Below are positions 30,614 to 33,323 of a DNA stretch of 64,000 nt, in pieces. The notes under the pieces are model-generated. The model did not search any database, had not been told where the DNA came from, and saw nothing but the letters and a program-made list of their open reading frames with translations. Origin of the DNA: Shewanella sp. c952 (lineage in GTDB: Bacteria; Pseudomonadota; Gammaproteobacteria; Enterobacterales; Shewanellaceae). The position numbers and the translations under genes are program-made. The DNA lies in assembly GCF_019654975.1 (NCBI RefSeq), contig NZ_BPEW01000003.1:228365-292364 (forward strand), read 5' to 3'. Positions within the stretch are counted from its first letter, which is position 1; every line of letters begins with the position of its first letter.

Positions 30614-30733
30614 TTAAATTAGCCCCATAATCTTTAGCCAAGACAAGCTTGCTGGCAATGTCGGTAACAACATCACTAGAATAAAACCAATAAAATAAAC
30701 AATGTTAAATGGGTCTTTAAACGGCTGACTCAT
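30614..30733 (-). CDS. 39-residue membrane micro-protein
   Basis: A short ORF (MSQPFKDPFNIVYFIGFILV then MLLPTLPASLSWLKIMGLI) with one transmembrane segment at about residues 11-27. AGAGGA stands six bases before the ATG, a strong ribosome site, and a TATAAT box plus an exact FNR-type palindrome lie in the 92-base gap behind hvfC. I do not recognise the protein. It could be the last member of the hvf cluster or an independent FNR-controlled gene. Confidence 0.6.
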   Translation of the reverse strand: MSQPFKDPFNIVYFIGFILVMLLPTLPASLSWLKIMGLI

Positions 30734-30766
30734 GACTTCCTCTACGACTGTTGTTAACGACATTTA

Positions 30767-30780
30767 TTGATCTAGATCAA
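30767..30780 (-). promoter_or_regulatory. Exact FNR/EtrA-type site before the 39-residue ORF
   Basis: TTGATCTAGATCAA matches TTGAT-N4-ATCAA perfectly. On the minus strand it falls just downstream of a TATAAT box at 30792-30797, where binding would repress rather than activate that promoter. Confidence 0.6.
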
Positions 30781-30825
30781 TTTTTTGCGCCATTATAGAG
30801 TTTCATCACGCCGATAGAAAGCCTA

Positions 30826-31590
30826 TTACCCAATAAACTGTCGAATAATCCCTTTATCACTCAGCTGAAGTAAAAGCTCAATGCAACCTTGCTGTAAAAC
30901 CTCAGATTCGATATTTGTGAAAGTCTCTAATAACCAATCAATTAGTTCGGAATATTGTACTGATTCAAATTGCGACATGTATGCCAATACTTGCGCCGTT
31001 AGTGGGTTGAGCTGTAAAAAGCTCACTTCATCATCGAAATCAGCGTAAATGCAGAAAAACTGTGGTGCTTCGGTGGGCGTATCTGGGCGATAATCTTTAC
31101 TAATATGCTGCACATCGAAAGTGTATTGGGCAATTTGTGACGTTGACGAAACACTGAGCGACATTTTAGTTATTGCATCAGTATCAATATCAGCCACATT
31201 AATGATCTTCTGCTGTGAGCTCTCTTGAGCGACAGCAACTACAAGTTCGAGCCACTCATAATGAGCCAGCTCAAGCATAAAAGCAGGGTCTTGCTCTGTT
31301 GCTGTATATTCTGTCTGCAAAAACAGTAAGAATTCTTGCGCGATTTCAATAAATATCGGTGTGTGACAGTCATGCTCAACAAAAAACAGCTGTACTCTTT
31401 GCTGCCAGTCTTGTTCACTGTATAAACTTTTCAATACAGGAAAAGCATTAGACACAAACCCATCAACATTATTAAAGAACAGTTCTCGGTAAATTTTCAT
31501 TCGCCGAGCTTCAATCCCCTCTGGTAAGGGATTTGATGGATCTTTAATGTAATCCATGAAGTTCTGCTGGGTTTCGATGAAACTCATCAA
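30826..31590 (-). CDS. hvfC: DUF2063 partner protein of the MNIO enzyme (HvfC/BufC-like)
   Basis: A 254-residue protein with an N-terminal putative DNA-binding-type DUF2063 domain (FIETQQNFMDYI, GIEARRMKIYRELFFNNVDGFVSNAFP, then 'VLKSL'), followed by a C-terminal half rich in acidic and hydrophobic residues. In MNIO (DUF692) RiPP pathways such as Haemophilus HvfABC and the bufferins, this protein is the partner that presents the precursor to the enzyme. It overlaps hvfB by four bases, so the two are translationally coupled. The DUF2063 call is from the N-terminal pattern and the context. Confidence 0.85.
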   Translation of the reverse strand: MMSFIETQQNFMDYIKDPSNPLPEGIEARRMKIYRELFFNNVDGFVSNAFPVLKSLYSEQDWQQRVQLFFVEHDCHTPIFIEIAQEFLLFLQTEYTATEQDPAFMLELAHYEWLELVVAVAQESSQQKIINVADIDTDAITKMSLSVSSTSQIAQYTFDVQHISKDYRPDTPTEAPQFFCIYADFDDEVSFLQLNPLTAQVLAYMSQFESVQYSELIDWLLETFTNIESEVLQQGCIELLLQLSDKGIIRQFIG

Positions 31591-32423
31591 GCACTCCTTT
31601 TTAAACTGGCGATATGACGATTTTGATAATCATGGATCTGATTAATCTCTAGCATCAACTCACTGGTGGCAGGAATATTAAAATCTCGCTCTAATAGCGT
31701 TGGAAAAGCGCCATGATATTGATGGCACGCATCAAGTAACTTCCACACGGGGTCAATGATATCAGCACCATGGGTATCAACCACTAGATCTTCTTCTTCT
31801 TCATAGTGACCCGCTATATGCAAGTACTGGATTCTATCCGTTGGCATCGCTTTTAAATATTCAAGTGCATCATATTGATGGTTGATGGAGTTAACATATA
31901 TATTATTAACGTCCAACAACATCTTACAATTAGCCTCTTGCAAGACTGCGCTGACAAACTCAAGCTCAGACATCTCTGCGCCTGGGGCTGCATAAAAAGA
32001 AACATTCTCTAATATTAGTGGTCGCTCAATAATATCTTCCACTTGTTTGACCCGCTGCGCCACATGTCGCACCGCTTCACCTGTAAACGGGATAGGCATT
32101 AAGTCATACATATGCCCGGAGCCAGAACAGTAGCTCAAATGCTCGGAGTATATTTTTATCTGATGTTGATCAAGAAAATTTTTAACATTTTTGACAAACT
32201 GCACATCAAGCGGTGCAGGACTACCTATTGATAATGACAGACCATGGCAGTAGAACTCATGCTTTTCTGTTAATTCTCGAAATTGACGGCCAAACTTACC
32301 ACCCAGCGTCATCCAATTTTCCGGTGCCACCTCGAAAAAATCGATGCCAGATGGAACACTTTGGCAGAACTCATCCAACATTTCTCGTCTAAGACCGAGA
32401 CCTACTTGTCCTTTATTTGTCAT
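31587..32423 (-). CDS. hvfB: MNIO-family (DUF692) multinuclear iron oxidase, HvfB-like
   Basis: A 278-residue TIM-barrel enzyme of the DUF692/MNIO family. These iron enzymes oxidise cysteines of a precursor peptide, in Haemophilus HvfB making oxazolone/thioamide pairs that bind copper. Candidate iron ligands seen: H60 (YCHGLSLS), E94 and H95 (SEHLSYCSG), E139-N140 (ILENVSFY), D171 and N173-N174 (LLDVNNIYVN), H202 and H206 (LHIAGH), D216/H218 (VVDTHG) and E245 (LLERDFNIP). Start MTNKGQVGLGLRREML is family-typical. It lies between the Cys-rich precursor gene and hvfC, the canonical order. Confidence 0.92.
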   Translation of the reverse strand: MTNKGQVGLGLRREMLDEFCQSVPSGIDFFEVAPENWMTLGGKFGRQFRELTEKHEFYCHGLSLSIGSPAPLDVQFVKNVKNFLDQHQIKIYSEHLSYCSGSGHMYDLMPIPFTGEAVRHVAQRVKQVEDIIERPLILENVSFYAAPGAEMSELEFVSAVLQEANCKMLLDVNNIYVNSINHQYDALEYLKAMPTDRIQYLHIAGHYEEEEDLVVDTHGADIIDPVWKLLDACHQYHGAFPTLLERDFNIPATSELMLEINQIHDYQNRHIASLKRSA

Positions 32424-32460
32424 ACCGCTCGCCCGTCAGTTTTGGGTTGAATTAACAAAT

Positions 32461-32483
32461 AGGGCCAGCAAACGCTGACCCCG
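32461..32483 (-). terminator. Attenuator-like hairpin between hvfA and hvfB
   Basis: In the transcript GGGTCAGC pairs with GCTGGCCC (one G-U) around GTTT, followed by the weak tract TATTTGTT. A partial terminator here would make precursor mRNA exceed enzyme mRNA. Confidence 0.5.
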
Positions 32484-32501
32484 TTTCACTATATAGAAAG
32501 C

Positions 32502-32939
32502 TTACTTAGAACCACCGCATTTACCTTCACCACACTTACCTTCTTTCTTAGCTTTTTTGTCGCCGCCGCACTTGCCTTCGCCACACTTACCTTCTTTGGC
32601 TTTTGACTTGGCTTTATCGCCGCCACATTTACCTTCACCACACTTACCTTCTTTGGCTTTCATCTTATCTTCGCCGCATTTACCTTCGCCACACTTACCT
32701 TCTTTGGCTTTCATTTTATCTTCGCCGCATTTACCTTCGCCGCACTTGCCTTCTTTGGCTTTCTTTTTGTCTGCGCCGCACTTACCTTCACCACACTTAC
32801 CTTCGCCTTCAACTAACTGGTAACCGGCTTGCATTTCACTAAAGCCGAATGGGCTTGCTTGAACAGATGCAGCCAAAGAGCTTCCAAGAACAACAGCGCC
32901 AACAGCAACAGTAACAGCAGTCTTATTAACTAGTTTCAT
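32502..32939 (-). CDS. hvfA: Cys-rich RiPP precursor with twelve EGKCG motifs (HvfA-like)
   Basis: A 145-residue secreted precursor. Residues 1-28 are a signal peptide (TAVTVAVGAVVLGSSLAA, likely cut after SVQA), residues 29-45 a short leader, and residues 46-145 six tandem copies of EGKCGEGKCG joined by Lys/Asp/Met spacers of the form .DKMKAK. The 12 cysteines (49, 54, 66, 71, 83, 88, 100, 105, 119, 124, 136, 141) are all in EGKCG motifs. This is the substrate type of HvfB in Haemophilus, where the cysteine becomes a copper-binding oxazolone/thioamide. GAAGGA precedes the ATG. The gene heads the hvfABC order with a hairpin before hvfB. Confidence 0.9.
   Translation of the reverse strand: MKLVNKTAVTVAVGAVVLGSSLAASVQASPFGFSEMQAGYQLVEGEGKCGEGKCGADKKKAKEGKCGEGKCGEDKMKAKEGKCGEGKCGEDKMKAKEGKCGEGKCGGDKAKSKAKEGKCGEGKCGGDKKAKKEGKCGEGKCGGSK
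32513..32804 (-). repeat. In-frame 51-bp repeats inside hvfA
   Basis: Six near-tandem units, mostly 51 bases (17 residues, one of 57 bases), each encoding a double EGKCG. Unit number could change by recombination or slippage without breaking the frame. Confidence 0.9.
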
Positions 32940-33323
32940 AATATCTTCCTTCTTGATTTAATCTACAGTATTTCGGTTACCAACAATGTATTTTGCTGGC
33001 TTGCTTAAAGAGACCTGAGCACCAACAATTTAATTTCATTTTTTCTACAACTATCACATTTATGGCGCAAAAAAGCTGATAGTGCAAACATTGTTTATAC
33101 CTATTAGCCGCAGTTCAGCACCATTTTTCGTTAAATTTGGTATATAACAGCAATGAAAAAGGCTTTCATAGCTATGAATACCAACCGAACAAAAAACAGA
33201 CAGTTTGCTGGCAATACGGAATTAGCTTGATTTAAGATCACGCTAAATTCACTTTCGTTTGGTACCACAGAGTGCATGATGTAGAATGCAGCGCCTTTTA
33301 AAACTTGATGAGTGGATAGTTCT
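32940..33323. other. Divergent promoter region hvfA-dusC
   Basis: 384 bases that must hold the hvfA promoter (leftward) and dusC promoter (rightward). The stretch TTGTTGGTAACCG lies about 45 bases before hvfA, but no confident sigma-70 or ECF promoter could be assigned. No operator of a known metal regulator was recognised. Confidence 0.4.

Follow-up and report, generated by a model that had tools for sequence, protein, structure and literature searches.

The window, a 64,000-nucleotide stretch of Shewanella sp. c952 (contig NZ_BPEW01000003.1, positions 228,365 to 292,364), carries the genes hvfA, hvfB and hvfC, which encode a secreted cysteine-rich precursor, a multinuclear non-heme iron-dependent oxidative enzyme (MNIO) and a DUF2063 partner protein. 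As judged from sequence comparison, this operon probably produces a secreted copper-binding thiooxazole peptide and belongs to a redox-stress regulon scattered over the genome, which would also include an unlinked DoxX gene and genes of thiol repair. The gene cluster itself is of a known type; what is new is its proposed link to a dispersed redox-type regulon that takes in an unlinked DoxX. A more specific version is put forward tentatively, with a chance set slightly below even: TGAAA[T/G]-N17-GGTCT would mark an undescribed regulon of an extracytoplasmic function (ECF) sigma factor in Shewanella and its relatives, driven by an orphan Shewanella ECF factor and triggered less by copper than by oxidised thiols or reactive chlorine. 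The peptide, a captophorin, would there serve the defence of thiols and against oxidants, alongside DoxX, DUF417, glutathione synthesis and reduction, a peroxiredoxin-like protein and the repair of methionine sulfoxide. No description of the signal or the regulon in Shewanella was found in the literature covered, which consisted mostly of titles and abstract openings, plus the papers cited here.

A signal shared by hvfA and an unlinked doxX gene

The signal and the three genes lie on the minus strand of the window:

33011..33038, minus strand: two-block promoter-like signal TGAAAT-N17-GGTCT, 71 nucleotides 5' of the hvfA ATG, sole match in the window
32502..32939, minus strand: hvfA, captophorin precursor of 145 amino acids, with 12 cysteines all in EGKCG (NF050137, 155 bits)
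31587..32423, minus strand: hvfB, MNIO (DUF692) maturase of 278 amino acids (profiles and a relative in PDB 3BWW)
30826..31587, minus strand: hvfC, DUF2063/NGO1945-like partner of 253 amino acids (profiles and a relative in PDB 3DEE)

TGAAAT-N16-18-GGTCT occurs once in the window, where 0.10 matches are expected, and an alignment of upstream regions from 20 loci displays two nearly invariant blocks with less conserved flanks. The 420 nucleotides before the first KCG codon of hvfA were searched at 75 loci of relatives. Strict TGAAAT-N17-GGTCT was present at 54 of them, TGAAA[T/G]-N16-18-GGTCT at 63 and TG[ACT]AA[T/G]-N16-18-GGTCT at 71, the respective expectations from mononucleotide shuffles being 0.00, 0.05 and 0.15. 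None of the three patterns matched elsewhere in these 75 loci on either strand.

An earlier note on this DNA had remarked that neither a DoxX-like gene nor a dedicated regulator is adjacent to the cluster. This is true at the locus, where hvfC is followed by an open reading frame (ORF) for 39 amino acids and then by a DUF454 gene, and the operon thus lacks the DoxX that is frequent, though not obligatory, in captophorin clusters; it overlooks a DoxX gene on contig C12 that stands behind the same signal. That gene is the single DoxX match above the Pfam cut-off in the genome, and TGAAAG-N17-GGTCT ends 31 nucleotides before its ATG. In a survey of 30 Shewanella genomes, 28 had a DoxX match, giving 30 loci whose 250 upstream nucleotides were searched: 23 carry TGAAA[T/G]-N17-GGTCT, always with a spacer of 17 (0.01 expected), and four further loci carry the signal with one change. 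The three loci without it are distant matches (43-45% identity), one of them with stop codons. Since the signal is conserved at both genes, hvfABC and the unlinked doxX share one signal across the genus.

It is unlikely that hvfABC is instead an ordinary stand-alone EGKCG copper captophorin operon whose signal matters for regulation at the hvfA locus and nowhere else. All three hvf genes do fit known families, clusters of precursor, MNIO and DUF2063 partner alone are already known as FonABC (PMC12668002), and genome-wide strict matches lie near background; yet the signal recurs with fixed spacing at most of the loci of doxX, which is not homologous to hvfA, and in the c952 genome it precedes functionally related genes.

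Identity of the hvfABC genes and their product

The order hvfA-hvfB-hvfC on a single strand, as the earlier note had described it, was confirmed, and profile searches against the MNIO, DUF2063 and HvfA families upheld all three identities. HvfB lies within DUF692 (PF05114, 352 bits) and passes NF003818, the NCBIfam HvfB model, at 442.6 bits (cut-off 360), while it remains below the cut-off of the BufB model (266.6 bits, cut-off 310). HvfC passes NF050145 (278.2 bits, cut-off 142) as well as PF09836 and PF22106, and its ATG overlaps the hvfB stop codon (TGATG). The repeat domain of HvfA scores 155 bits against NF050137 (KCGExKCG_twice; cut-off 19.5), a model with five overlapping matches genome-wide, every one in the hvfA ORF; the full-length equivalog NF050188 stays below its cut-off (84.2 bits, cut-off 95), so HvfA is filed under the repeat family rather than under the HvfA equivalog. 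Structural relatives are PDB 3BWW for HvfB (E 4e-68) and PDB 3DEE for HvfC (E 2.5e-7). MNIOs of the Lys-Cys group have an adjacent arginine pair and an Asp-Phe pair (R15, R16, D249 and F250 in FonB); in the alignment with 3BWW, RR 12-13 and DF 247-248 of HvfB coincide with the RR and DF of 3BWW. The nearest named relatives of HvfB belong to S. kaireitica, with 95% identity, and to S. gelidimarina and S. abyssi. The curated profiles place the locus among the typical EGKCG captophorin (oxazolin/Buf_EGKCG) operons, here in a Shewanella.

HvfB-type MNIOs with their partner proteins have been established elsewhere to make Cu(I)-binding 5-thiooxazoles, and PMC12668002, which names the class captophorins, describes these groups in fontiphorin, oxazolin and gonophorin. 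The oxazolone/thioamide chemistry assumed in the earlier note is accordingly outdated, HvfA having been reassigned to 5-thiooxazole (PMC12668002, PMC13419390). Its proposal of up to twelve metal sites is probably too high, since native mass spectrometry detected up to four copper ions on a seven-site product (PMC12668002). The likely product, a copper-binding modified peptide that is exported, was rightly anticipated as far as sequence can tell. Taken as a whole, that interpretation stands for the gene identities and the type of product, and gives way on the chemistry, the twelve sites and the claims of novelty.

Other candidate members of the regulon

The genome of c952 contains 18 matches to TGAAAK-N16/17-GGTCT, compared with 3 for the reversed pattern. 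Among the ten with a spacer of 17, seven are followed by a gene (hvfA, doxX, a DUF417 gene, gor, gshA, an AhpC/TSA-family gene and a lipoprotein gene) and three are antisense inside ORFs, while seven of the eight with a spacer of 16 lie inside ORFs. The signal is located about 40 nucleotides upstream of the DUF417 gene and within about 115 nucleotides of gshA, the start codon of which is uncertain; the AhpC/TSA-family protein, which is peroxiredoxin-like, has a signal-like start. Curated models identified gor (glutathione-disulfide reductase, 632 bits) and gshA (glutamate-cysteine ligase, 567 bits) above their cut-offs, and DoxX, DUF417 and AhpC-TSA were confirmed in the same manner. A two-block signal with fixed spacing is therefore found at several unlinked loci, as would be looked for in an ECF regulon.

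The strict form was also searched in 16 Shewanella genomes, which yielded 56 sites, 30 of which were read. It precedes hvfA in six genomes and, in one genome each, genes for MsrBA (439 bits, above the curated cut-off; L240), MsrP (481 bits, likewise; L264), DoxX (L254) and a protein resembling the DUF417 one (L266; a resemblance noted without a profile scan). The remaining sites that were read lie inside or against ORFs or have no clear gene behind them. At L256, in one genome, the strict signal stands about 85 nucleotides before a fusion that by eye joins TVP38 to a pyridine nucleotide-disulfide oxidoreductase.

Candidate readers of the signal

The shape of the signal, its spacing and its distance from the start codon fit an ECF-type promoter. 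The genome holds 15 sigma factor genes above the TIGR02937 cut-off, nine of which are of ECF size by reading. Orphan ECF factors of Shewanella are on record: PMC4336711 names SO_3551, SO_3096 and SO_3840 and gives their function as largely unknown, and PMC4336711 and PMC8458880 list SO_3550/SO_3551, along with further orphan ECF genes, as having an unknown role. A relaxed search upstream of eight ECF genes of c952 returned nothing beyond a near-match at the C13 ECF gene (L201), a site with one mismatch at the start of the gene. This site was rejected as a promoter and taken as coding conservation, because the gene's own ORF stays open through it (RNK...VSS.M, by eye); among the L201 orthologues (30 loci, 8 unplaced), three near-matches occupy the same relative position. 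The ECF gene of the Buf1 locus on C22 was likewise dropped as the regulator, Buf1 loci having been seen without the signal.

The classical envelope-stress sigma factor RpoE is a doubtful reader, less probable than either the stand-alone operon considered above or the transcription factor considered below. The downstream GGTCT block resembles the GTCT of Shewanella RpoE promoters (PMC4336711). The promoters listed there, however, combine GAACTT with a TCTACA-type -10 element for RpoE, or TGATCC with CGTATT for rpoE2, and these first blocks differ from the TGAAAT or TGAAAG found here; by hand count, the spacer is also about 2 bases longer than at the listed rpoE and rpoH sites.

Instead of a sigma factor promoter, the signal could also be where a transcription factor binds, for example a sensor of copper or redox state. 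The evidence is conservation of sequence, and TGAAA and GGTCT could be the contact blocks of one protein, yet they form neither inverted nor direct repeats, they keep a constant distance of about 17, and most sites lie 30-90 nucleotides before the ATG (one DoxX site is at 141 nucleotides). This explanation is considered improbable, and an ECF-type promoter is preferred.

Comparison with known systems

The operon resembles HvfABC of Haemophilus influenzae (oxazolin) and FonABC in its secreted EGKCG precursor, HvfB-type MNIO and DUF2063 partner. It differs from the former in having six doublets rather than three, and in the absence of a DoxX (HvfX) from the operon, the signal being shared with a distant doxX. 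PMC13419390 reports the three doublets of H. influenzae HvfA and describes the DoxX-like HvfX as still uncharacterised.

A regulatory parallel exists in Caulobacter, where sigmaF, reading GTAACC-N16-CGAA, controls two bufferin operons, DoxX and YedY (PMC3511200). Both regulons would join captophorin-type operons, DoxX and a YedY gene at separate loci under one ECF signal. Unlike the Caulobacter case, the signal here is TGAAA[T/G]-N17-GGTCT and the precursor is of the EGKCG rather than the DUF2282 kind, while gor, gshA, DUF417 and the peroxiredoxin-like gene are found behind the signal in addition. In Neisseria, msrAB and the operon that encodes sigmaE are both under sigmaE control (PMC2893595). 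We take the latter as a captophorin operon because NGO1945 is a captophorin partner protein, so that sigmaE/Ecf-MseR (msrAB; NGO1944-1948) likewise places the gene of a captophorin partner and MsrAB under a single ECF factor. In contrast to the window operon, the neisserial sigma and anti-sigma genes lie within the operon, and the deduced promoter is GTMAGBWTT-N12/13-CGTCTAAH. Copper resistance of Cupriavidus also shows a genetic interaction between the gig cluster and glutathione (PMC10304878).

The c952 genome has a second captophorin-type system (L002, C22:30421-31209), which consists of a precursor resembling the DUF2282 kind, an MNIO and a partner. This Buf1 locus shares with hvfABC an MNIO, a DUF2063-type partner and a secreted cysteine-containing precursor; it differs in its BufB-type MNIO, in its own ECF sigma factor gene and in having no match to the signal. 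Among relatives, Buf2 loci with 12 cysteines that carry the signal upstream are L268, L276, L279, L283 and L284, and at L279 the signal stands before a thioredoxin-like gene, itself 5' of the Buf2 precursor.

Proposed mechanism and its weighing

In the proposed scheme, HvfB and HvfC would convert the cysteines of the twelve Lys-Cys-Gly motifs to 5-thiooxazoles, a change of about -48 Da in total. Modification would take place in the cytoplasm and precede Sec export, and the peptide would then hold Cu(I) in the periplasm. The signal would serve as the promoter for an ECF-type sigma factor encoded away from hvfABC. Envelope or thiol stress would free this factor, so that HvfABC, DoxX, DUF417, the enzymes of glutathione synthesis and reduction, and the peroxiredoxin-like protein increase together. 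Free periplasmic Cu(I) would oxidise thiols, which the glutathione enzymes and DoxX would keep reduced, DoxX acting in trans in the way presumed for the cis-encoded DoxX of other captophorin clusters.

The trigger of the regulon is a guess. Chlorine oxidants are named as a possible trigger because the DUF417 family includes RclC, which belongs to the response of Escherichia coli to reactive chlorine, and because hypochlorite induces MsrP.

Were the regulon real, the signal shared with DoxX and glutathione genes would offer an alternative trigger for EGKCG captophorins, would explain how the cluster manages without an adjacent DoxX, and would give a handle on the orphan ECF sigma factors of Shewanella.

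Several observations weigh against this scheme. The ECF genes examined carry no convincing copy of the signal upstream, though autoregulation is expected. The strict TGAAAT form gives 56 matches in the 16 Shewanella genomes compared with 45 for the reversed control, and single strict matches are therefore mostly chance and carry little weight; one genome each is the basis for gor, gshA, the peroxiredoxin-like gene, MsrBA, MsrP and the TVP38 fusion. The signal lies about 295 nucleotides from the gor start codon and about 277 from that of the lipoprotein, YHS-like by eye, which is a weak case. Loci are related by descent, so the counts are not independent events, and at the 29 loci L143-L171, mostly of wider relatives, the signal is present at 12 and absent from 17, so that its place before hvfA is a trait of certain lineages and not a universal one. 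Matches at Buf2 loci number 5 of 18 (7 of 18 with the wide pattern), and those at the Buf1 loci of relatives 0 of 2. An oxidant trigger also sits poorly with the two models: PMC3511200 presents sigmaF as a heavy-metal response and lists msrA homologues as unchanged, and PMC2893595 describes meningococcal sigmaE as unresponsive to peroxide, diamide and singlet oxygen. As for copper, PMC12538549 found a related Microbulbifer operon not to be copper-induced and its protection slight. The authors of that paper are hesitant to call the Microbulbifer EGKCG captophorins copper protection. The case for the candidate regulon rests on the conservation of the signal at hvfA and doxX and on the contrast with the reversed pattern in the c952 genome.

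Repeats and signal peptide of HvfA

Two parts of the precursor can be delimited:

32856..32939, minus strand: residues 1-28 of HvfA (...ASVQA/SP), a putative Sec signal peptide on by-eye reading
32514..32804, minus strand: core of six EGKCGEGKCG doublets with lysine-rich linkers, periods of 17, 17, 17, 19 and 17 residues

By eye, the N-terminus has a basic start, a hydrophobic stretch and VQA/S. Reading the protein bore out the description of twelve cysteines, all within EGKCG and arranged as six pairs; they occupy residues 49/54, 66/71, 83/88, 100/105, 119/124 and 136/141, and the cysteine-to-cysteine gaps between pairs are 12, 12, 12, 14 and 12.

The view of this doubled-motif architecture as special was set aside, since doublets and larger cysteine counts had already been published. 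PMC12452194 describes about 2000 Buf_EGKCG proteins, one type of which has 17-residue repeats of two EGKCG motifs, and one protein carrying 58 cysteines; against these, six doublets are a variation in number. Two-cysteine cassettes are also reported in Microbulbifer precursors (PMC12538549).

A full hvfA could be read at 75 of 80 named loci of relatives. Cysteine counts range from 4 to 24, with 12 at 25 of the 75 loci, and the 449 runs of cysteines at 5-residue steps comprise 374 doublets, 66 single motifs, 8 triple and 1 quadruple. Pairing of EGKCG is thus common and not obligatory. Many single EGKCG motifs at a constant 12-residue step, with 9-12 cysteines in total, occur in L058 (S. canadensis), L060 (S. 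benthica), L061 and L063. These arrays would be informative substrates, because FonBC is reported to modify a two-repeat substrate and not a one-repeat substrate (PMC12668002). At L157, L161 and L169 (genus g34), three of the 12 signal-bearing loci among L143-L171, EGSCG, EGACG or EGGCG doublets replace EGKCG, so that the lysine before the modified cysteine is swapped. Their HvfB nevertheless scores above the curated cut-off, and the strict signal stands upstream of the non-EGKCG precursor.

A terminator-like hairpin between hvfA and hvfB

In the 78-nucleotide gap between hvfA and hvfB, folding gives a GC-rich hairpin with a T-rich run behind it:

32461..32482, minus strand: terminator-like hairpin GGGGTCAGC-gttt-GCTGGCCCT, then ATTTGTT, from the fold of the hvfA-hvfB gap

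A hairpin was counted when its stem had at least 7 pairs, at least 5 of them G-C, and it ended in at least 4 T. By this rule 66 of 76 hvfA-hvfB gaps qualify, that of the window included, compared with 0.4 expected from dinucleotide shuffles, and the letters of the stem vary between lineages. This frequency suggests partial termination after hvfA and hence an excess of precursor. In the proposed mechanism, the hairpin would end most transcripts after hvfA and leave far more precursor than enzyme. The main texts of PMC12668002 and PMC12452194 contain no words beginning with terminator, hairpin or attenuat.

A conserved 39-amino-acid ORF after hvfC

The interval given for the cluster in the earlier note began at 30614, which is the stop of a separate ORF and not that of hvfC:

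30614..30733, minus strand: conserved 39-amino-acid ORF, predicted as a single helix

No Pfam or NCBIfam family matches this ORF above its cut-off. It is present in 41 of 60 genomes, that of c952 included, and a profile search across the order matched it in 109 of 295 genomes. It is very improbable that it represents an overlooked fourth component of the cluster, one replacing DoxX. Its broad presence, its purine-rich ribosome-binding site and its position, which is directly 3' of hvfC at 21 of the 30 loci fetched, speak for such a role, but in the other 9 it precedes DUF454-apt-dnaX and hvf genes are absent, and the membrane ORF was rejected as a new cluster component on this ground. In the loci inspected it lies near apt, whether hvf is present or absent; by this arrangement it belongs to the apt/dnaX neighbourhood and is not part of the proposed regulon. 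In the loci that lack hvf genes, a response-regulator-like ORF precedes the 39-amino-acid ORF, and in Marinifaba (L092, from 5835) such an ORF follows a degenerate copy of it, which together hint at rearrangement.

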